NCBI GenBank assembly: GCA_028284125.1
Contig: JANQSI010000013.1
Location: 310,001 to 374,000, forward strand
Direction of reading: 5' to 3'
Source of the DNA: Cyclobacteriaceae bacterium
GTDB taxonomy: Bacteria > Bacteroidota > Bacteroidia > Cytophagales > Cyclobacteriaceae
DNA: 64,000 nucleotides
This document shows positions 43,128-53,060 of this stretch, in pieces. A model generated the notes under the pieces. The model did no database searches and was not told the DNA's origin. It saw only the letters and a program-made list of their open reading frames with translations. Position 1 is the first letter of the stretch. Each line of letters begins with the position of its first letter. The position numbers and the translations under genes were made by a program.

Positions 43128-43598
43128 TTACTCTAGTTCTTCAACTACAACCCAGTTATCGTCTGCTTTTTTCTTGTATCCATCCTGGTCGGTATTCCAC
43201 TCTTCTTTCAGGCTCCCTGTCAATGATGTCATCCAATCGTCATAAAACAGAAGAAGCTTTCCATCCTGAATTTGCCACATGGTTGGATCTGGTTCCATTT
43301 TTATTGAACTCTCTGCTACCGCGTAAGCACACCATCCGCCGTAGGCAGGAATGTATTTATCCGTATTTGAATCGAACAACCTTTTGTTATCTATGCTTGA
43401 AAATTGATAGGTAACTCCATCCACGATGGTAGCATATTGTGGATTGCCGAGTGTTGCTTCCGACTGCTCAAAATATGCCACAGGATCGTATCCACCAATA
43501 GCTGCTCCATTGGCTTCATAAACTTTTCCTTTTGGTCCTTCGGAAGATGAACCGCAAGCGGAAATTAGTAGGATAATGAGTATAAAATATGTTTTCAT
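43128..43598 (-). CDS. YHS-domain lipoprotein
   Basis: About 156 residues from the ATG at 43598 with a lipoprotein signal (MKTYFILIILLISAC). The body contains the YHS-domain pattern IGGYDPVAYFEQSEATLGNP, FSSIDNKRLFDSNTDKYIPAYGGWCAYA. YHS domains occur in metal-handling proteins; no metal can be assigned here. It is separated from the photolyase island by a 194-bp intergenic stretch. Confidence 0.85.
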   Translation of the reverse strand: MKTYFILIILLISACGSSSEGPKGKVYEANGAAIGGYDPVAYFEQSEATLGNPQYATIVDGVTYQFSSIDNKRLFDSNTDKYIPAYGGWCAYAVAESSIKMEPDPTMWQIQDGKLLLFYDDWMTSLTGSLKEEWNTDQDGYKKKADDNWVVVEELE

Positions 43599-43792
43599 GA
43601 TTAAGCTAGATTTCAATCTTGAACCAAAATTGGATAAATAAGTTTTAATCACTCCTATTAACTGAGACTTCAGGTCGTAAGCAGGACAATTTGAAATCTG
43701 TCTGAGAAGAGTGCTTATTATTTTGGTTAAAATCCAAACAATCCAACAAAGTGATGGTTTGACTTATTACCACGGATTAAAAAGTCAGGAAA

Positions 43793-43954
43793 ATGCGATT
43801 TTTCAAACAGAAAACCAAGATGGAAAAGCTGCAGAGTCGATACGAGAAACTTCTTAAAGAATCGTATGAGCTTTCTAAAGTAAATCGAAGCAAAAGCGAT
43901 GCAAAATTGGCTGAGGCAGATCAGTTGATTAAAGAGATGGAAGCGCTTGTTTAG
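43793..43954 (+). CDS. Lacal_2735 family small protein
   Basis: A 53-residue protein (MRFFKQKTKMEKLQSRYEKL to LIKEMEALV), almost entirely charged helix, matching the small Lacal_2735 family found in Bacteroidota photolyase clusters. Function unknown. It appears to head the photolyase operon: the next gene starts 23 bp later on the same strand. A TTTGG/CCAAA inverted repeat (about 43733-43750) lies roughly 50 bp upstream. Confidence 0.8.
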   Translation: MRFFKQKTKMEKLQSRYEKLLKESYELSKVNRSKSDAKLAEADQLIKEMEALV

Positions 43955-43977
43955 CTTCAAATTCATTAGCTATCATT

Positions 43978-44253
43978 ATGGATCTGACTAAGCCCGATGT
44001 AGACCGAATCATCGAAATGGCCTGGGAAGATCGAACTCCTTTTGAAGCGATTAAGTATCAATTTGGCCTGAGCGAAAGCGAAGTAATCACTTTGATGCGT
44101 CATGAATTGAAACGCTCAACTTTTAACAGATGGCGCAAGCGAGTAAACCAAAAAATCAGTCTCAAACATTTGGCAAAACGGAATCCTGAAATTGATCGGT
44201 TCAAAAGCTATCGTCAAAAGTCCATATCACATAACAGAATATCCAAACGGTGA
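43978..44253 (+). CDS. TIGR03643 family (DUF2805-like) small protein
   Basis: A 91-residue basic protein. The first half (DVDRIIEMAWEDRTPFEAIK, FGLSESEVITLMRHELK) looks like a helix-turn-helix. The family regularly travels with cryptochrome/photolyase genes, so a regulatory or DNA-binding helper role is inferred. It overlaps the FAD-binding protein gene by 4 bp (GTGATG). Confidence 0.82.
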   Translation: MDLTKPDVDRIIEMAWEDRTPFEAIKYQFGLSESEVITLMRHELKRSTFNRWRKRVNQKISLKHLAKRNPEIDRFKSYRQKSISHNRISKR

Positions 44254-45350
44254 TGTTCGAAACCAACTATGAGCTAATCAAGGCTCAATTAGATGCAATC
44301 GATCCGATTGATTACGGTCGAACGAGAAACTATCTGGACGGCAGTGTTACCCGATTGTCTCCTTACATTTCCAGAGGAGTAATATCGACGAAAATGGTCA
44401 TGCAGCATGTGCTTGATCAAGGACACTCCCTTTTCCAAATAGAAAAGTTTCTCCAGGAGCTGGCATGGAGAGATTATTGGCAGCAAATCTGGATTGAAAA
44501 AGGAGACTTAATCAATGATGACCTGAAACAGACTCAGCCTGATTATGAACACTTTGAAATGCCCCGTTCGATCATTGATGCCACAACTGGCGTTCAGGCA
44601 ATTGATCAAGCCATCAATCAGTTTTATATCGACGGCTATCTGCATAATCATGTTCGAATGTACATTGCCGCGATTGCTTGCAACATGGGAAAGAGTCATT
44701 GGAAGACTCCCGCGAGGTGGATGTATTATCACTTGTTAGATGGTGATTGGGCCAGCAACGCACTCAGTTGGCAATGGGTAGCCGGATCTAACTCCAACAA
44801 AAAATACTGGGCCAACCAAGACAATATCAACAAGTATTGTTACAGTGCACAACGAGGTACTTTTCTGGATGTGGAATACGAAGCATTTGACAAGATGTCG
44901 ATTCCGATCGAATTATCCTCAACTTCTGATTTTGTACTTAAAACCAAGCTTCAAGCGAAGGAAAAAGTAGTTATCGAAAGCAACAAACCGCTACTCGTAT
45001 ATAACTACTACAACCTCGATCCAAATTGGCACAAAGAACTTGACGCTAATCGAGTTCTCTTACTTGAACCATCGATTTTCAAAAAGTATCCTATATCTCC
45101 AAATGCAATCGATTTCATGATGGGGCTTTCTGGCAACATTCCTGGAATACAGATCTATGTTGGAGAATTCCAAGAGTTGAAAAAGGAGATAGAAGCCGAG
45201 GAAATTATTTTCAAGGAGCACCCACTTAATTTCAATTACGAGGGAATTGAAGAGCCCAGAGATTGGATGTTTTCAGTGAAAGGATACTATCCGTCTTTTT
45301 TCGGTTTCTGGAAAAAATGTAAAAAAGAACTCAAGCAGCTTGACCAGTGA
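44250..45350 (+). CDS. Photolyase-like FAD-binding protein lacking the N-terminal antenna domain
   Basis: 366 residues. The FAD-binding catalytic fold starts at once ([20 protein letters not shown]) and contains the photolyase signatures [35 protein letters not shown] and [20 protein letters not shown], with the FAD-proximal Asn and both Trp of the WQW motif present. The N-terminal alpha/beta antenna domain of normal photolyases is absent; instead residues about 245-366 form an alpha/beta stretch ([41 protein letters not shown]). It could be a permuted antenna domain or a distinct fold. It overlaps the next gene by 11 bp. Confidence 0.85.
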
Positions 45351-46797
45351 TCCTATAAATATCGTTTGGCTGAAGCGTGACATTCGCTCTCAAAACCATG
45401 CACCACTAAAGATCGCAGAAAATGAAGGAATCCCTTATCTGGTCATTTACATATTTGATGATGCATTGATCAACCATCCGGAGACATCAACAAGGCATCT
45501 CCAGTTTGTCTACCATTCAATCCTTGATTTGAATCAAACATGGACTCATCAGCGTCGAAAAGTGGAGCTATTTTATGGAAGTTCAGCTGAGGTCTTCAAT
45601 TACTTGCTACAAACTTATGATGTGAAAAAAGTCTTTTCTTATGCGGAGACTGGCGTTAAGCTTAGTTGGAAACGCGACAAAGAAGTCGCAAGAAGACTAA
45701 GTGGCAGTGGAGTTCAGTGGCAAGAGTTTCCAAGAGATGGAGTTGTGCGAGGCATCACTAACCGAAAAGGTTGGGACAAGCGCTGGTACGTGACCATGAG
45801 TGAACCTTTAATTCAGAATGCCTATTCAGACAATAAGCTGAAACCTTCAAACTATCTGTTCCAATTACCTTCGGAGTTTAAGCAATCCTTAGAAACTTAC
45901 CCATCTGATTTTCAACCAGCTGGAGAAACGAGTGCCTGGAAATACTTGCATTCATTTGTTGAGGAGCGTGGATTTCGATATCACTCACTGATCTCAAAAC
46001 CAGCTGAAAGCCGAACTTCTTGTTCGAGGATTTCTCCTTTTTTAGCTTGGGGCAACCTCAGCATCCAGCAAGCCTATCAATACGTAAGGAATCACCCAAA
46101 TCTTCAAACAAATAAACGGGCATTTCAAGGAATGCTTACAAGCTTGAAATGGCATTGCCACTTCATTCAAAAACTTGAAGTAGAGTGTGAATACGAGACA
46201 AAGTGCATCAATCGCGGATACGAGTCGATGGAAAGAAGCAACAATCCAGAACATCTGAAAGCCTGGGAAGAAGGAAAAACGGGATTTCCATTAGTTGATG
46301 CATGTATGCGGGCCGTTGTTGGAACTGGCTGGATTAATTTCAGGATGCGAGCCATGTTGGTTTCGTTTCTGTGCCATCATTTAGATCATGATTGGAGAAA
46401 TGGAGTTTATCATCTTGCCAACCAGTTTCTCGATTATGAGCCTGGAATTCATTATCCCCAATTTCAAATGCAAGCAGGTACTACTGGGATAAACACCGTA
46501 AGGATTTACAATCCAGTTAAACAATCAAAGGATCACGATCCGGAAGGAAACTTTATTAAACAATGGGTTCCTGAGTTAAGGAATGTTTCTAAAAACCATA
46601 TTCACGAACCTTGGAATATGACTGAACTAGAACAACAATTTTGTGGCGTAACTATTGGGAAAGACTATCCCTTTCCAATTGTAGATCTGGCTGAAAGTGG
46701 TAGAAAAGCAAGAACGAAAATCTGGGGACATAGAGGTCGTGCTGAAGTTAGAAAAGAAAGTCAACGAATATTAAAAACTCATACACGCAGAGGATAA
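45340..46797 (+). CDS. Deoxyribodipyrimidine photolyase / cryptochrome family protein
   Basis: 485 residues with an N-terminal DNA_photolyase (antenna) domain ([20 protein letters not shown]) and a C-terminal FAD domain ([70 protein letters not shown]). The segment that is WQW in classical CPD photolyases reads FQM here ([15 protein letters not shown]), so this is not a textbook class I enzyme; the [10 protein letters not shown] style resembles a separate bacterial/cyanobacterial subfamily. Repair of cyclobutane dimers or a cryptochrome-like signalling role are both possible. It shares its last base with the start of the flavin reductase gene. Confidence 0.88.
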
Positions 46798-47429
46798 TGT
46801 ATTTATCAAAATCAGATATAGAGCAAACAGAGCGAATTAAGCGCTTGAATATCATCAACGCCGTAACTGGCATCAAACCAGCAAACCTAATAGGAACTAG
46901 ATCAGAAGATGGTGAGGCTAATGTGGCGATCTTTAGTAGCGTTGTACACTTGGGAAGTGATCCAGCGTTACTAGGATTTGTGTTGAGGCCTCAGCATGAA
47001 AAACCACGAGATACTTACATTAACATCAAATCTTCAGGTGCTTACACGATCAACCACGTTCCGATAAGTCTGATTGAAAATGCGCATTTTACCTCCGCTA
47101 AATTTCCAAAAAAGATTTCCGAGTTTGAACGTTGTGGTTTTACAGAAGAATACCTTTTTGACTTTCATGCTCCCTTTGTTAAAGAGAGCTATCTGAAAAT
47201 TGGCCTGGAGCTGGTTGAAGAGATTCCCATTTCCTCAAATCGAACCATCATGATGATTGGACAAATCGTGCATCTAGAATTTCCAGATGAGGTAATGGGT
47301 GAGCACGGACATCTCGATCTCGAGAAACTAGAAACAGCGGGCATATCAGGAGTGGATAGCTACTACCAACTCAGGAAGAAAGATCAGTTTCCTTATGCTC
47401 ATGTAAAAGACGTTCCGGATTTCAAATGA
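46797..47429 (+). CDS. Flavin reductase-like domain protein
   Basis: A 210-residue split-barrel FMN-binding protein (KPANLIGTRSEDGEANVAIF, SGAYTINHVPISLIENAHFT) of the flavin reductase-like family. In this operon it may supply reduced flavin to the photolyases or act as a flavin-dependent oxidoreductase; this is inference from position. It overlaps the DUF2256 gene by 4 bp. Confidence 0.88.
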   Translation: MYLSKSDIEQTERIKRLNIINAVTGIKPANLIGTRSEDGEANVAIFSSVVHLGSDPALLGFVLRPQHEKPRDTYINIKSSGAYTINHVPISLIENAHFTSAKFPKKISEFERCGFTEEYLFDFHAPFVKESYLKIGLELVEEIPISSNRTIMMIGQIVHLEFPDEVMGEHGHLDLEKLETAGISGVDSYYQLRKKDQFPYAHVKDVPDFK

Positions 47430-47569
47430 AAAAGCAGAATATTCCATCCAAAATTTGCGTGGTTTGTGGACGGCCTTTTGATTGGAGAAAGAAATGGGAG
47501 CAAGCTTGGGACGAGGTAAAGTATTGCAGTGAGAGGTGTCGCCGAAACAGAAATAAAATGGTGAATTAA
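47426..47569 (+). CDS. DUF2256 zinc-finger-like small protein
   Basis: A 47-residue protein with Cys11-x2-Cys14 (KICVVCGRPFDWRKKW) and Cys34-x3-Cys38 (VKYCSERCRRNRNK), a small zinc-ribbon typical of DUF2256, a family that accompanies photolyase genes. It overlaps the flavin reductase stop by 4 bp and ends 4 bp before the PhrB-like gene. Confidence 0.87.
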   Translation: MKKQNIPSKICVVCGRPFDWRKKWEQAWDEVKYCSERCRRNRNKMVN

Positions 47570-47573
47570 CAGC

Positions 47574-49040
47574 ATGGAAGTTTCTCTCATTTTTCCGCAC
47601 CAACTTTTTGAAGATCATCCGTCAATCGGTGATGGACGAATGGTTTATCTAATTGAAGAATTCTTATTTTTCAATCAATACAAATTCCATAAACAAAAGT
47701 TGGCTTTTCATCGAGCTTCTATGAAATCCTATGCCCATTATCTCAATACAAAAGGATTTGAGATTAAATACATCGAGTCAACTGATGAAAGATCAGATAT
47801 CAGGAAGTTGGTTGAAAGTTTAAATGTCGCTAAAGTTCATTTCATAGATCCAGTTGATAACTACCTGGAAAGAAGATTGAAGAATAGTTGCAGGAAGAAT
47901 GGGATCGACCTGCATGAGTATGAGTCCCCAGCTTTTCTGAATTCCAGAAAGGAGCTTTATACTTTTTTCAAAGCTGATAAAAAGAAATTCTTCCAAACAG
48001 ACTTTTACAAACAGCAACGAAAGGTCAGAAGTATTCTCCTGGATGATACAGATCAGCCTGTAGGAGGAAAATGGACATTTGACGCAGAGAATAGGAAAAA
48101 ATATCCCGCCAAAAAGTCTCCGCCAACCATCACTTACCCCAAGGCAAGCAAGTTTTACGAAGAGGCAACAGAATACATAGAACTCCACTTTGCCAAAAAC
48201 CTCGGAGCTTTATCCGATGAACAATTATATCCGATAGATTTCGATTCAAGCAGGTCATGGCTTCAGCAATTTTTATCCATTCGATTTGCTGAGTTTGGAG
48301 ACTATGAGGATGCTATTGTTTCAACTGAAAGTATTCTTAATCACAGTGTACTCTCACCTCTCCTCAATGTTGGGCTTCTGACTCCCAATTATGTGGTTAA
48401 GGAAATCCTGAATCATGCTGATGAGTACAACATAGCAATCAACAATACGGAAGGTATCATTCGACAAATCATCGGGTGGCGAGAGTTCATCCGCGGCGTT
48501 TATGAGGTTAAGGGTTCGTACGAACGAAATCGAAACTATTGGAATTTTAATCGCAAGATTCCGGAATCCTTTTACGATGGAACCACGGGTATCGAACCTG
48601 TCGATATGACGATCAAAAAACTATTGAAGACTGGTTACAACCATCACATCGAACGGCTCATGGTTCTGGGCAACTTTATGTTGCTCTGTGAATTTGACCC
48701 AAATGAAGTGTACCGATGGTTCATGGAAATGTATATAGATGCCTATGACTGGGTGATGGTTCCGAATGTATACGGAATGAGTCAATTTGCTGACGGTGGT
48801 CTTATGTCAACCAAACCTTATATCAGCGGAAGCAATTACCTCCACAAAATGAGTGATTTTAAGAAAGGAAAATGGCAATCTATCTGGGATGGTTTGTTTT
48901 GGCGGTTTATGCATGTACACCGTGATTTCTTTTTATCCAATCCCCGCCTTGGAATGCTTATTCGCACATTTGACAAAATGAGTCCAGAAAAAAGAAACGC
49001 ACACTTGAAAATAGCTGAAGACTACTTATCCGATCTCTAA
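47574..49040 (+). CDS. PhrB-like cryptochrome/photolyase family protein without Fe-S ligands
   Basis: 488 residues of the bacterial (6-4) photolyase/FeS-BCP superfamily: N-terminal alpha/beta domain (SLIFPHQLFEDHPSIGD) and a FAD domain with HHIERLMVLGNFMLL, AYDWVMVPNVYGMSQFADGG and STKPYISGSNYLHKMSD. Classical members bind a [4Fe-4S] cluster through four cysteines, two in a CxxC right after the MSD motif. Here that segment is FKKGKW and the whole protein has only two cysteines (106 and 372), so no such cluster can be bound. Repair of (6-4) photoproducts is likely but the electron path must differ. Confidence 0.88.
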   Translation: MEVSLIFPHQLFEDHPSIGDGRMVYLIEEFLFFNQYKFHKQKLAFHRASMKSYAHYLNTKGFEIKYIESTDERSDIRKLVESLNVAKVHFIDPVDNYLERRLKNSCRKNGIDLHEYESPAFLNSRKELYTFFKADKKKFFQTDFYKQQRKVRSILLDDTDQPVGGKWTFDAENRKKYPAKKSPPTITYPKASKFYEEATEYIELHFAKNLGALSDEQLYPIDFDSSRSWLQQFLSIRFAEFGDYEDAIVSTESILNHSVLSPLLNVGLLTPNYVVKEILNHADEYNIAINNTEGIIRQIIGWREFIRGVYEVKGSYERNRNYWNFNRKIPESFYDGTTGIEPVDMTIKKLLKTGYNHHIERLMVLGNFMLLCEFDPNEVYRWFMEMYIDAYDWVMVPNVYGMSQFADGGLMSTKPYISGSNYLHKMSDFKKGKWQSIWDGLFWRFMHVHRDFFLSNPRLGMLIRTFDKMSPEKRNAHLKIAEDYLSDL

Positions 49041-49053
49041 GAAAGTCTGAGGT

Positions 49054-49422
49054 TTACTTCCTTGCACTCAGCGCCCACAATAGCAGCAAAGGGTGAATCA
49101 CGATCAACCGCAACCAGCCCACCCACTCTGGTACACACAGACCTCCATCGACACAGCTTCCTATTTGAATGAAGTAAACATGTGACGGAATAAAAGCTAA
49201 CAGCATTGCGAAGATTCCGAGAGCAGCGACTTTTCTTGTCTTGGTAATGAACAAACCCACACCAAGCAATATTTCAGCTACGCCTGAGAGATAGTTGATT
49301 AGAACAAAATTTCCAATGGCATGGGGTATCAGATCTAGATAGAAATCGGGATCAATAAAGTGATTGACTCCTGCGATCAAGTAAAAGCCGCCTTGGATCC
49401 GCGTACTGATCTTTCTTTTCAT
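49054..49422 (-). CDS. DoxX-like membrane protein
   Basis: About 122 residues from the ATG at 49422, giving four membrane helices (FYLIAGVNHFIDPDFYLDLI, VLINYLSGVAEILLGVGLF). The frame extends to 49485 but the first conserved DoxX segment begins at the chosen start. It overlaps the preceding membrane-protein gene by 4 bp. DoxX-like proteins are linked to quinone/thiol redox and oxidative stress, which fits the island. A loop containing two Cys (GSCVDGGLCVPEW) is odd. Confidence 0.82.
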   Translation of the reverse strand: MKRKISTRIQGGFYLIAGVNHFIDPDFYLDLIPHAIGNFVLINYLSGVAEILLGVGLFITKTRKVAALGIFAMLLAFIPSHVYFIQIGSCVDGGLCVPEWVGWLRLIVIHPLLLLWALSARK

Positions 49423-49820
49423 ATGAGTTGAAGATTTCCTGATCGACGAGCTTCCCGAAGAATGAGAATAAATGGTACCCACCAAATGAAATCATTTGTG
49501 ATCAGTGTATAGAAAAAAGCAAAAGGAACCTTATCGGTTAGGTAGTTCATCAAGAATCCTAGCGGTCCAAATATTTTACCAAGAAATCCTACAGCCACAA
49601 TTGGCCAGTGTACAACTGGATTTTGAGCTGCCCACCAATAACCAAGTCCGTAGACACCTATCACCATTCCCATTCCCTGCCAGATCATGATTTGAGTGGG
49701 GATTTCCATTCCTGTCAACTGGAAAAAATGATTTGGAAAAAGAACGACCCAAGCTCCCCACAATACATTGTAGATGCCGGCGATTCTAAGCGTCAAGGAC
49801 ATGGAATTTCTACTCATCAA
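49419..49820 (-). CDS. Small four-helix membrane protein
   Basis: A 133-residue hydrophobic protein with four helices (IYNVLWGAWVVLFPNHFFQL, WQGMGMVIGVYGLGYWWAA, IVAVGFLGKIFGPLGFLMNY). I do not recognise a named family beyond uncharacterised Bacteroidota membrane proteins. It is translationally coupled to the DoxX-like gene and divergent from the alpha/beta hydrolase, with only 51 bp between the two starts. Confidence 0.75.
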   Translation of the reverse strand: MMSRNSMSLTLRIAGIYNVLWGAWVVLFPNHFFQLTGMEIPTQIMIWQGMGMVIGVYGLGYWWAAQNPVVHWPIVAVGFLGKIFGPLGFLMNYLTDKVPFAFFYTLITNDFIWWVPFILILREARRSGNLQLI

Positions 49821-49871
49821 AATGATTATTTCTCATCATAACACTTTAAGCCTACAATTGTTAAATGATCA

Positions 49872-50660
49872 ATGAATTCGATCTTAAATTTCAAAACTCA
49901 TATTTTATCTCAAGACGCTGAGTGGCTTGTTTTCATCCATGGTGCAGGGGGAAGCATCAGCACCTGGAAGCGTCAAGAATTATATTTCTCCCGATACTTC
50001 AACATTCTCATGATTGACCTAAGAGATCATGGAAACTCCAAAAATATTTATCCTGAACATGAAAGCTACAAGTTTGAAATCATATCTAGTGACCTAAAGA
50101 AGGTTATTGATCACCATCAGATTCAAAGTGCACACTTCGTGACGCTATCTTTTGGTAGTGTCTTGATGCAAGATTTTGCCTCTCGTTATCCTGGTTATAT
50201 TGAAAAATTGGTTTTTATCGGGGCTGTCTTTAATGGTGATCTCGCATTGAAGGTTTTTGTGCGTTTGGCTAAATTTTTAAATCTCTTTCTGAGCTATCCG
50301 ACCATGTACAGGCTGTTTTCCTTCATTTTAATGCCAAGAAGAGAAAATCAATTCGCGCGAAGACTATATCGATCTCAAGCTAAAAAAATTGCGCAAGATG
50401 AATATATGAAATGGTTAGGCCTGTACCGTGAGTTTTTCAAATTACTAAAACAGTTCAGCGGACAAGTATTAGACGTTCCATCATTAATTATGATGGGAGA
50501 AAATGACTATCTATTCCTTCAGAGCGCCAGAGAATTCAACAAAAGCCATAAAACAACGGAATTGGTTGAGGTGGCGGGAGCTGGACACATTGTGAATATC
50601 GAGAAGCCTGATGCCTTCAATAGAATAACCCTTGACTTTTTAAGGTCGCATACAGACTAA
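49872..50660 (+). CDS. Alpha/beta hydrolase
   Basis: A 262-residue alpha/beta-hydrolase fold protein: oxyanion motif FIHGAGGSISTWKR, nucleophile elbow VTLSFGSVLMQDFAS (T-L-S-F-G, with Thr in the first Gly position), acid in IMMGENDYLF and histidine in VEVAGAGHIVNIEKPDAF, so the triad is complete. The substrate is unknown. Its 3' end overlaps the convergent membrane-protein gene by 44 bp. Confidence 0.87.
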   Translation: MNSILNFKTHILSQDAEWLVFIHGAGGSISTWKRQELYFSRYFNILMIDLRDHGNSKNIYPEHESYKFEIISSDLKKVIDHHQIQSAHFVTLSFGSVLMQDFASRYPGYIEKLVFIGAVFNGDLALKVFVRLAKFLNLFLSYPTMYRLFSFILMPRRENQFARRLYRSQAKKIAQDEYMKWLGLYREFFKLLKQFSGQVLDVPSLIMMGENDYLFLQSAREFNKSHKTTELVEVAGAGHIVNIEKPDAFNRITLDFLRSHTD

Positions 50661-51045
50661 TAAGAAAAACTAAGGACCAAAAAGCGGTTCTATACCAGTT
50701 AAGTTTAACTAATGCTTTTGCAGAATCTAACACCTGACTTCCATTAGCAATTTTTCTATGGAGAGGAACTGCAAAGATGAAAGTGTTAACCCATGTCATG
50801 CTGATAAGTACTACTGATATTAGGCGCCACCATTCAAAATCGAAATAGATACCAAGGAAATGGAGAAGTCCTTGTCCTAGCATTAATGGCATCACAAAAT
50901 AGAAGACTGCTGAAGTATATCGACCGTGCCATCTCACAAGATCTTCCTCTCGAAAAAAAGTGAAGCTTGGGTAGACGATTAATTGTGTCATCCAAATGAG
51001 GATGACGAGACCAAAATCAACGATCGTTGTTATGAAGATGAGCAT
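50617..51045 (-). CDS. DUF1772-like four-helix membrane protein
   Basis: A 142-residue integral membrane protein (TIVDFGLVILIWMTQLIVYP, VFYFVMPLMLGQGLLHFLGI, ISMTWVNTFIFAVPLHRKIA). The pattern of Tyr-Pro after helix 1 and PLHRK after helix 3 resembles DUF1772-type proteins. Function unknown. It converges on, and overlaps by 44 bp, the hydrolase gene. Confidence 0.72.
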   Translation of the reverse strand: MLIFITTIVDFGLVILIWMTQLIVYPSFTFFREEDLVRWHGRYTSAVFYFVMPLMLGQGLLHFLGIYFDFEWWRLISVVLISMTWVNTFIFAVPLHRKIANGSQVLDSAKALVKLNWYRTAFWSLVFLISLYATLKSQGLFY

Positions 51046-51091
51046 ATCTGTTAGGCCAACTTATGGATCAGGTCATTGATCACTATTCAAA

Positions 51092-51619
51092 TTATTGAGT
51101 AAACTCAATGAAGTCAATTTCCGCTTTAAAGCTTCCCTCTCGTTTGTCATTGGTTATGAATCCGAATCTAATAATTTCAGATAGCTTGCCTTGGTCAATC
51201 GATCTGCCAGTAGGCCTGCCAATTCTATACTCCTTAAAATCTTCTAGGGAGTAAGTAACTTCCTCCCATTTCATTTTTGTGTTGGGAAGTATCACTTTGT
51301 AATTAGGCAAATACCAGCGTTGATAATGATTCAAGACAAATCCTAAAGATTGCCCTTCACTTCTATAGCGAATTGTCACCGATGACCATTCAGTAAGATT
51401 TTTATTGAAGTAGTCGCTTCTCACTGAAGCAAACCCACCATTGTTTTCAAAGGAAATTTCTCCTTCAAGCCGAAGAAGATTTTCTTCATAGTTCACTAAA
51501 CCTATGGAACGACCCCCCATTACTCCATCATTGACAGAGATCCAGGAATTAGTTTTCCCTTGGCCGAAATCAATTAAAAGCGAGTCAGAGGTCATAAGAA
51601 ACAAGATTAACCAAAGCAT
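51092..51619 (-). CDS. CIA30 family protein
   Basis: A 175-residue protein with a short signal and a galactose-binding-like CIA30 domain, shown by ISVNDGVMGGRSIGLVNYEE and FENNGGFASVRSDYF. The family is named for a complex I assembly factor but bacterial members are uncharacterised. It is divergent from the fasciclin gene, sharing a 151-bp regulatory region. Confidence 0.85.
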   Translation of the reverse strand: MLWLILFLMTSDSLLIDFGQGKTNSWISVNDGVMGGRSIGLVNYEENLLRLEGEISFENNGGFASVRSDYFNKNLTEWSSVTIRYRSEGQSLGFVLNHYQRWYLPNYKVILPNTKMKWEEVTYSLEDFKEYRIGRPTGRSIDQGKLSEIIRFGFITNDKREGSFKAEIDFIEFTQ

Positions 51620-51693
51620 TCATTTAAAATTTGATGAAAAATGCACATTAAACTACGAAGCTGTTTAAAGAGAACTCTATGATTATTTTTTTG

Positions 51694-51729
51694 TTTTGTT
51701 TAACAAATTTAAAAAAAGATTAAACAAAA
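51694..51729. promoter_or_regulatory. Inverted repeat TTTTGTTTAA-N16-TTAAACAAAA
   Basis: Perfect 10-bp arms at 51694-51703 and 51720-51729 with a 16-bp AT-rich spacer, in the divergent CIA30/fasciclin intergenic region, 42 bp upstream of the fasciclin ATG. The left arm also forms a smaller palindrome TTTGTT-T-AACAAA (51695-51707). It has the look of a dimeric repressor operator, but no regulator gene is visible nearby. Confidence 0.5.
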
Positions 51730-51770
51730 TGAATCTTGTTCGGTTGTATTAGAAACTTAAAAAAACAGAA

Positions 51771-52259
51771 ATGAAAAAGAATGTAATTATCACACTAGGA
51801 CTTGTAGTAGCAATGTTTGCTGCGAACGTAACTTATGCTCAAAAAAGTGATATTGTGACACTTGCTGTTGGTAACGAAAACTTATCAACGCTTGTAGCTG
51901 CAGTAAAAGCAGCCGGACTTGTAGAAACATTGCAGGGAGACGGACCATTTACCGTTTTCGCACCTACTAATGAGGCATTTGCTGCATTGCCGGAAGGAAC
52001 TTTGGACAATTTGCTAAAGCCAGAGAACAAAGATCAATTGACTGCAATCCTAACTTATCATGTGGTTGGAGCAAAGGTTTTGTCTACAGACTTGAAAAAT
52101 GGTCAAAAAGCTGAAACAGTTAATGGAGCGTCAATTAATGTGAAATTGGCTGGAGGAAAAGCGATGATTAATGACGCAACCGTAGCAGCTGCAGATGTAA
52201 TGGCTTCTAATGGAGTTGTGCACGTGATTGACAAAGTGATTTTGCCACCAAGCAAATAA
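51771..52259 (+). CDS. Fasciclin-domain secreted protein
   Basis: A 162-residue protein: signal peptide ([20 protein letters not shown]) then one FAS1 domain with both conserved boxes, [17 protein letters not shown] (H1) and [18 protein letters not shown], and the end [16 protein letters not shown] (H2). FAS1 proteins mediate adhesion or surface coating and are often part of light-induced gene sets with photolyases in Bacteroidota; the latter link is from memory. It is followed by a strong terminator. Confidence 0.93.
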
Positions 52260-52280
52260 ATTTCATCTTACTTTTAATAG

Positions 52281-52311
52281 AAAAGTCTACTTCAAAAAGT
52301 GGACTTTTTTT
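52281..52311 (+). terminator. Terminator of the fasciclin gene
   Basis: A 12-bp stem, AAAAGTCTACTT (52281-52292) with AAGTGGACTTTT (52297-52308), CAAA loop, one G-T wobble, running into a T tract; 22 bp after the stop. Confidence 0.85.
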
Positions 52312-52331
52312 GTGTCTGAAAAATCCATTTC

Positions 52332-53060
52332 ATGAAAATTCTTAACGCAATCACACTCGTCGCAGTAATAACTGTAAATGCGCTAGCCAACATCCTGCCA
52401 ATCAATGGTGTGACCACCGGTGGAGTCTCTGCGAGGTACGATAATTATTTTACGTCTGCTGGGTTCACATTCAGCATATGGAGTGTGATTTACCTGGGAT
52501 TGACTGCTTTTGTCATTTACCAATTTTTTTCGAAATTTTTTAAACCAAGGGACATTGGATACTTTTTTGTCCTTAATGGAATTGCCAACATTAGCTGGAT
52601 TTTAGCATGGCATTATGGCTATTTGACCATGATCGTTTTCATCATGTTTTTGATCCTTTTAACGCTCATAAAAATTAATTTGAGAATTTCAGGATCAAGC
52701 TGGTGGGTGCGATTTCCATTTCAAATCTATTTAGGCTGGATATGTGTAGCTACCATTGCAAACATTGCCGTGTATTTTAAATTCCTTGACGTTGCAGTGT
52801 TAGGAATTGAAGAAGTCCACTGGGGAATTATCCTTGCCATTATTGCAGGTGGACTTGGGTTGATTATTCTTTTTAGGAAAGGGTGGACTGTTGCGACACT
52901 GGCTATTTCTTGGGGGTTATGGGGAATTTTTAACAAGCAAAATGATTTAGGACAAGAAGAAACCTATCAAGTAGTGTGCTTAGCCATAATAATAGTGCTT
53001 GTTCTTTCTACACTTTTCCAAAGAAGTTTAAAGAAGAAATTCCAACTAGCCCTTAATTAA
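52332..53060 (+). CDS. TspO/MBR-like tryptophan-rich membrane protein
   Basis: A 242-residue membrane protein with about seven hydrophobic segments. The N-terminal half has the TspO-like pattern VNALANILPINGVTTGGVSA, FTSAGFTFSIWSVIYLGLTA and later Trp-rich helices (NGIANISWILAWHYGYLTM). Longer than canonical TspO (about 160 residues), as in the larger Bacteroidota members. TspO proteins bind tetrapyrroles and respond to light and oxidative stress, which fits the photolyase island. It ends at the converging tRNA-like repeat. Confidence 0.83.
   Translation: MKILNAITLVAVITVNALANILPINGVTTGGVSARYDNYFTSAGFTFSIWSVIYLGLTAFVIYQFFSKFFKPRDIGYFFVLNGIANISWILAWHYGYLTMIVFIMFLILLTLIKINLRISGSSWWVRFPFQIYLGWICVATIANIAVYFKFLDVAVLGIEEVHWGIILAIIAGGLGLIILFRKGWTVATLAISWGLWGIFNKQNDLGQEETYQVVCLAIIIVLVLSTLFQRSLKKKFQLALN

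Follow-up and report, generated by a model that had tools for sequence, protein, structure and literature searches.

Why does one bacterium hold three unlike photolyase-fold flavoproteins in a single run of genes, and what do the small proteins encoded among them do? The question is raised by a stretch of 64,000 nucleotides (referred to as the window) from Cyclobacteriaceae bacterium in the phylum Bacteroidota (GenBank assembly GCA_028284125.1, contig JANQSI010000013.1, positions 310,001 to 374,000 of the forward strand). Positions 43793-49040 of the window contain genes for a FAD-domain-first photolyase-superfamily protein (here called G3), a photolyase-like protein (PHR4), a member of the prokaryotic (6-4) photolyase family (DPRP), a flavin reductase and small proteins of the Lacal_2735, TIGR03643/DUF2805 and DUF2256 families. 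We consider it probable that these genes form a photorepair operon in which the three photolyase-fold flavoproteins share the labor and DUF2256 serves as a dedicated partner of DPRP. The results suggest that what is new here is this partnership, attached to an operon of a known general kind.

The genes for DUF2256 and DPRP are co-inherited in two genome samples. In the first, made up of 148 genomes from the window's own phylum, DUF2256 was identified in 50 genomes (two of these matches being weak, G069 below the cut-off and G139 barely above it) and DPRP in 49. Both were present in 46 genomes, as compared to 16.6 expected, with four containing DUF2256 only, three DPRP only and 95 neither (Fisher test, p = 8e-30). 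Among the photolyase carriers of this sample, DUF2256 was found in 46 of the 49 genomes with DPRP, as compared to only three of the 37 without it, one of which is the weak match in G069 (p = 5e-17); this count leaves out 11 genomes with weak PF03441 matches, of which three re-enter through DPRP and the other eight have no DUF2256. The second sample comprised 200 genomes from the phylum to which a genome labelled Gammaproteobacteria belongs; both genes were present in 31 of them (6.8 expected), DUF2256 only in five, DPRP only in seven and neither in 157 (p = 2e-24). Here, DUF2256 was present in 31 of the 38 photolyase carriers with DPRP versus four of the 50 without (p = 1e-12), leaving out G385, for which the PF03441 match is below the cut-off.

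Since photolyase carriers that lack DPRP mostly also lack DUF2256, general photolyase carriage is not the explanation. The co-occurrence also exceeds mere operon linkage, because in 25 of the 46 first-sample genomes with both, the two genes were separated by more than 3 kb or split between contigs. An earlier note on this DNA had tied the small proteins to the photolyase run, and for DUF2256 the coupling to DPRP proved to be genome-wide, holding even where the genes are unlinked. All 14 genomes with G3 among the 148 also carry both DPRP and DUF2256.

We also compared the locus to its relatives, which were collected from named genomes with G3 as the seed of the scan; 578 relatives were confirmed, of which the best 80 were kept, several ending at contig ends. 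By label, most belong to Bacteroidota, and a few to Verrucomicrobia, Opitutales, Gammaproteobacteria, Rhodobacteraceae or Balneola. Counting genes that share the strand of G3 and lie no more than 6.5 kb from it, we identified DUF2256 in 61 of the 80 loci, DPRP in 59, TIGR03643 in 49, PHR4 in 40, the reductase in 35 and Lacal_2735 in 30, using neighbor-gene profiles that were built from the same 80 loci, which favors finding genes there. At least two of the seven genes were present in 77 relatives, and the order seen in the window was kept in 74 of these, with L060, L087 and L107 as the exceptions. Conservation of gene order had been named in the earlier note as a check of the proposal; at 74 of 77 informative relatives, the order is kept beyond chance. 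For 14 of the 21 relatives without DPRP at the G3 locus the genomes were searched, and DPRP was found elsewhere in 12 of them.

In the window itself, open reading frames and profile matches agree on the seven compact plus-strand genes and on the families first named for them (Table 1), six of which score above curated Pfam cut-offs, with Lacal_2735 identified through NCBIfam. According to the coordinates of the reading frames, TIGR03643 overlaps G3 by 4 bases, G3 overlaps PHR4 by 11 bases (provided that the TTG start of PHR4 is correct), PHR4 overlaps the flavin reductase by 1 base and the reductase overlaps DUF2256 by 4 bases, followed by a 4-base gap to DPRP. The small genes had been described as bound to the run by overlap, which is true of TIGR03643 and DUF2256 but not of Lacal_2735, which is separated from TIGR03643 by a gap of 23 bases. 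In the relatives, the profile matches of successive genes have a median spacing of 2-27 bases, except after Lacal_2735, where the median gap to TIGR03643 is 435 bases in the 29 relatives in which the two are successive. In 22 loci a further gene family lies between them (e.g., L083:8274-8678), which has no counterpart in the window and corresponds to DUF2452 in its one scanned member. The interval 43793-49040 probably constitutes a single photorepair operon, conserved among the relatives and of a general type already known, the genes of which are presumably co-transcribed. It resembles a UV-B-inducible operon in Synechococcus sp. PCC 7335, where photolyase genes are co-transcribed, but the latter comprises only two genes, one of them for a bifunctional enzyme allied to class II, and the portion of that report available does not name the small proteins (PMC9649867).

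Table 1. Genes of the seven-gene run and of the adjoining downstream region, with positions in the window.
Feature	Position	Strand	Match
Gene 1, Lacal_2735-family small protein, 53 aa	43793..43954	+	NCBIfam NF033487, 64.8 bits (cut-off 32)
Gene 2, TIGR03643/DUF2805 protein, 91 aa	43978..44253	+	PF10985, 112.5 bits; TIGR03643, 113.5 bits
Gene 3, G3, FAD-domain-first photolyase-superfamily protein, 366 aa	44250..45350	+	FAD_binding_7, residues 67-185
Gene 4, PHR4, photolyase-like, 485 aa, TTG start	45340..46797	+	PF00875 + PF03441
Gene 5, flavin reductase, split-barrel FMN-binding fold, 210 aa	46797..47429	+	PF01613, 62.9 bits; PDB 3fge, 180 bits
Gene 6, DUF2256 protein, 47 aa	47426..47569	+	PF10013, 82.5 bits
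Gene 7, DPRP, prokaryotic (6-4) photolyase family, 488 aa	47574..49040	+	PF04244, 188.5 bits
DoxX-like gene	49054-49485	-	Pfam match below cut-off
DUF4345-like gene	49419-49820	-	Pfam match below cut-off
DUF1772-like gene	50617-51045	-	no Pfam match at E 0.1
CIA30 gene	51092-51619	-	Pfam-confirmed

The start of the operon is adjoined by a gene of the YHS-domain (seleno)protein family (positions 43128-43652, minus strand), which is present in the locus of one of the 80 relatives.

Several observations weigh against a photorepair operon with a dedicated DUF2256-DPRP pair. Promoter and terminator scans gave predictions no commoner than in shuffled sequence. DPRP occurs without DUF2256 in 3/49 and 7/38 genomes of the first and second sample, respectively, and DUF2256 without DPRP in 4/50 and 5/36; Caulobacter vibrioides and Synechococcus elongatus, two of the named controls, contain both, and another, Haloferax volcanii, DPRP only. 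Plasmids of Erwinia, Spirosoma, Deinococcus and Hirschia carry DUF2256 with no annotated photolyase nearby. In only 16 of 40 DUF2805 regions (one for each of the 43 first-sample genomes with the gene minus the window's own and two others, some ending at contig ends) does a photolyase-fold gene lie within roughly 8 kb, a count in which the profiles may miss other photolyase classes. A metagenome study grouped DUF2805 with translation genes, and the accessible part of that article does not mention a photolyase alongside it (PMC3597751). Finally, Fisher tests assume independent genomes, and since the genomes are related by descent, kinship inflates the significance and the p values overstate the association. 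The occurrence of both and neither inside single families, such as f25 with eight genomes with both genes and six with neither among those listed, speaks for repeated origins of the pattern.

All seven genes occur together in just five of the 80 relatives, and gene combinations vary. G3 is patchily distributed, being present in 14 of the 148 genomes of the phylum and, at E < 1e-150, in six of the ten genomes of the genus including the window's own. Plasmids of several phyla bear DUF2256 or TIGR03643, some without an annotated photolyase nearby. These features could also reflect a mobile or selected package of independent UV-tolerance genes, with DUF2256 and DPRP co-inherited through a sunlit, aerobic habitat and not through joint function. 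We regard this as unlikely, because the scarcity of DUF2256 in photolyase genomes without DPRP (3/37 and 4/50) means that a shared habitat alone would hardly be sufficient.

As for the nature of the proposed DPRP partner, an alignment of 21 DUF2256 sequences from Bacteroidota, Pseudomonadota and Deinococcota revealed invariant CxxC (C11, C14) and CxxxC (C34, C38) motifs along with invariant tryptophans at W20, W24 and W28. The four cysteines are arranged in two pairs, like those of zinc-ribbon or FCS-like zinc fingers, and DUF2256 is probably a small zinc-binding protein. A profile search of PDB with DUF2256 gave nothing significant, a phage collection contained no match, and no fusion with a photolyase was seen in the profile maps; several long frames among the matches are stop-to-stop frames. 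No paper linking DUF2256 with a photolyase was found in the open library searched; a survey from 2025 counts the family with the DUFs that are frequent in proteins of at most 50 residues (PMC11796252). As the partner in the probable operon, DUF2256 would help DPRP with its stability, with the loading of cofactor or DNA, or with the supply of electrons. We propose more tentatively, at slightly less than an even chance, that the prokaryotic (6-4) photolyase family has in DUF2256 a dedicated subunit or maturation factor that has gone unrecognised. The spacing of the tryptophans (i, i+4, i+8) would fit one face of a helix, which suggested an electron relay; a putative helical ladder of W20, W24 and W28 that passes electrons in trans to the DPRP flavin is a far-fetched version of the partnership.

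DPRP contains the PF04244 and PF03441 domains, matches eight PDB sequences of its family over nearly the full length (E 7e-80 to 4e-68, with 7ykn the best at E 7e-80) and is homologous to PhrB (4dja, E 7e-75). By homology it is a member of the prokaryotic (6-4) photolyase family, being similar to PhrB, FeS-BCP and CryPro over nearly its entire length, and it would act in repair on (6-4) photoproducts. It differs from the FeS-BCP type, to which it is not assigned, in that all four iron-sulfur (Fe-S) cysteines are missing, as reported for cysteine-less forms (PMC9178010, PMC9426592). Among 102 aligned DPRP rows, 28 have all four cysteines, 71 have none, two have one (both from one gene, within the tested segment) and one is truncated. 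The rows from the G3-seeded loci are cysteine-less in 58 of 58 readable cases, including the window (one further row is truncated), and all 28 four-cysteine rows come from other loci. Elsewhere, in G137 and G175, G3 and a four-cysteine DPRP do share a genome. DUF2256 was considered as a substitute for the lost Fe-S cluster, and this was ruled out because it accompanies four-cysteine and cysteine-less DPRP genomes alike.

G3 had been described as an antenna-less FAD protein. It indeed lacks an N-terminal antenna domain, but the description overlooked a small alpha/beta domain at the C-terminus, which starts at about residue 235 and follows the N-terminal FAD domain. The equivalents of D372, D374, N378, W382, W384, E274, W277, R278, N341 and W359 (E. 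coli numbering), which we take to have the roles of the class I catalytic site, are identical in 81 of 81 rows, and the apparent outer position of the classical Trp triad is occupied by Ile, Leu, Val or Met. In a model of G3, the C-terminal domain is confident and the FAD half is of low confidence (alignment of nine sequences); the VIA-align rows for this model fall on the FAD half and scarcely cover the C-terminal domain.

Among proteins comparable to G3, NewPHL was reportedly described in Emmerich 2020 and SPL in Xu 2021. The FAD-first domain order of G3 has been reported for NewPHL, SPL and Phr7 of Prochlorococcus, along with repair of cyclobutane pyrimidine dimers (CPDs) in single-stranded DNA, and G3 shares with them the presence of a C-terminal domain as well as the absence of an N-terminal antenna domain and of an Fe-S cysteine motif (PMC13274461, PMC9426592). 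On the other side of the comparison, its C-terminal domain has no significant hhalign match to the C-termini of five alphaproteobacterial short proteins; a comparison to those of two Deinococcus short proteins also gave no significant match. Phylogenetic analysis of the FAD domain, in a small tree without DASH or verified NewPHL sequences, placed G3 as a monophyletic group (79) that is not sister to the alphaproteobacterial set. With regard to a possible circular permutation of the antenna domain, hhalign of the G3 C-terminus against the PHR4 N-terminus gave only an E of 0.009 and a probability of 4.5. We suggest that G3, a candidate member of this family, would act on CPDs, with single-stranded DNA as the likely substrate, in line with reports on NewPHLs. 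The alphaproteobacterial short FAD-domain proteins adjoin UbiB-family kinase genes in two loci (L263:5890-8492, L267:1602-4143) and DUF3429 genes in two others (L265, L266).

TIGR03643/DUF2805 was identified in 43 of the 148 first-sample genomes, of which 37 contain DPRP (14.2 expected) and 38 DUF2256 (14.5 expected), and a DUF2256 gene was found within about 8 kb in 13 of the 40 DUF2805 regions. The gene is a neighbor of DUF2256 and DPRP on a plasmid of Acinetobacter sp. WY4, and is located near PHR4 and the flavin reductase on a plasmid of Vibrio pelagius; on the plasmid of Pseudoalteromonas sp. THAF3 it adjoins DUF2256, with PHR4 within 6 kb. These neighborhoods speak for the photorepair operon. 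On a Nostoc plasmid (L257:7989-8243) it adjoins partition genes and a FAD oxidoreductase, with no annotated photolyase nearby. Its tie to photorepair is real, not exclusive, and weaker than that of DUF2256. It is helix-turn-helix-like only through weak Pfam matches below the cut-off, and a PDB profile search gave nothing significant; in the operon it would act as an accessory protein that binds nucleic acids or has a regulatory role. In an Acinetobacter plasmid from the Antarctic (L255:6989-10086), TIGR03643, DUF2256 and DPRP adjoin nudC, and a DUF2805-NudC-type domain architecture has been listed (PMC6856373). G115, G126, G141 and G199, as second matches, and G079 and G083 carry a DUF2805 that has diverged and scores about 76-84 bits; the latter two genomes lack DPRP.

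The earlier note had extended the operon to a photo-oxidative stress island of about 9.3 kb that includes downstream membrane and redox genes. Pfam confirms the fasciclin and alpha/beta hydrolase genes downstream of the run, and the TspO-like reading frame has no Pfam match at E 0.1. The strand switches past 49040, with four of the seven following genes on the minus strand. Around G3 in the 80 relatives, the DUF1772-like gene recurs in 14 loci and CIA30 in 12, which together with lipocalin, desaturase and cyclopropane synthase genes next to the Acinetobacter plasmid copy is what speaks for an island, but CIA30 is located 6-8 kb upstream rather than downstream in some loci. The hydrolase gene recurs in four loci, fasciclin in three, the DoxX-like and DUF4345-like genes in one each and the TspO-like gene in none, so that five of the seven rarely or never recur. 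The larger island is thus decidedly unlikely, and the proposal reduces to the seven genes.

Within these, domain identities and gene order confirm that the conserved run encodes, as had been claimed, three photolyase-fold proteins that are unlike one another (G3, PHR4 and DPRP), and the three probably divide the labor, PHR4 being the member to which we assign no role. PHR4 is full-length and contains the DNA_photolyase and FAD_binding_7 domains. Its flavin pocket is, as read from the aligned sequences, non-canonical: the equivalents of N378, W382 and W384, where canonical enzymes have Asn, Trp and Trp, are His in 42, Phe in 40 and Met in 42 of 43 rows, one of which is gapped. That PHR4 would be a blue-light sensor controlling the operon through the helix-turn-helix-like TIGR03643, and not a repair enzyme, is very unlikely. 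This reading is favored by the weak helix-turn-helix matches of TIGR03643 and by PHR4 having uniformly lost the canonical residues at the flavin N5 position and at the equivalents of W382 and W384. Against it stand the helix-turn-helix matches staying under the Pfam cut-offs, a PDB profile search with TIGR03643 that is not significant, and the absence of PHR4 from G3's strand within 6.5 kb in 40/80 loci (two having it on the other strand), with TIGR03643 present in 49/80. In favor of the photorepair operon, bacterial cryptochrome and DNA photolyase have been reported to be light-responsive in Dokdonia MED134 (PMC9040609). In the photorepair operon, the flavin reductase probably supplies or maintains reduced flavin, which photolyases require as FADH-. 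The window's genome contains a fourth photolyase of 431 amino acids on another contig (G000:C6, L301:1398-2693), with class I-like active-site motifs recognized by eye, and a large share of CPD repair may fall to this class I-like enzyme.

The common description of photolyases is that of single, self-sufficient proteins. If the proposed partnership is true, a protein of 47 residues whose occurrence follows one photolyase family in two separate genome samples would point to a dedicated helper, and its partnership with DPRP would begin to explain DUF2256. The operon also offers a ready set of genes for studying why a single bacterium maintains four different photolyases.

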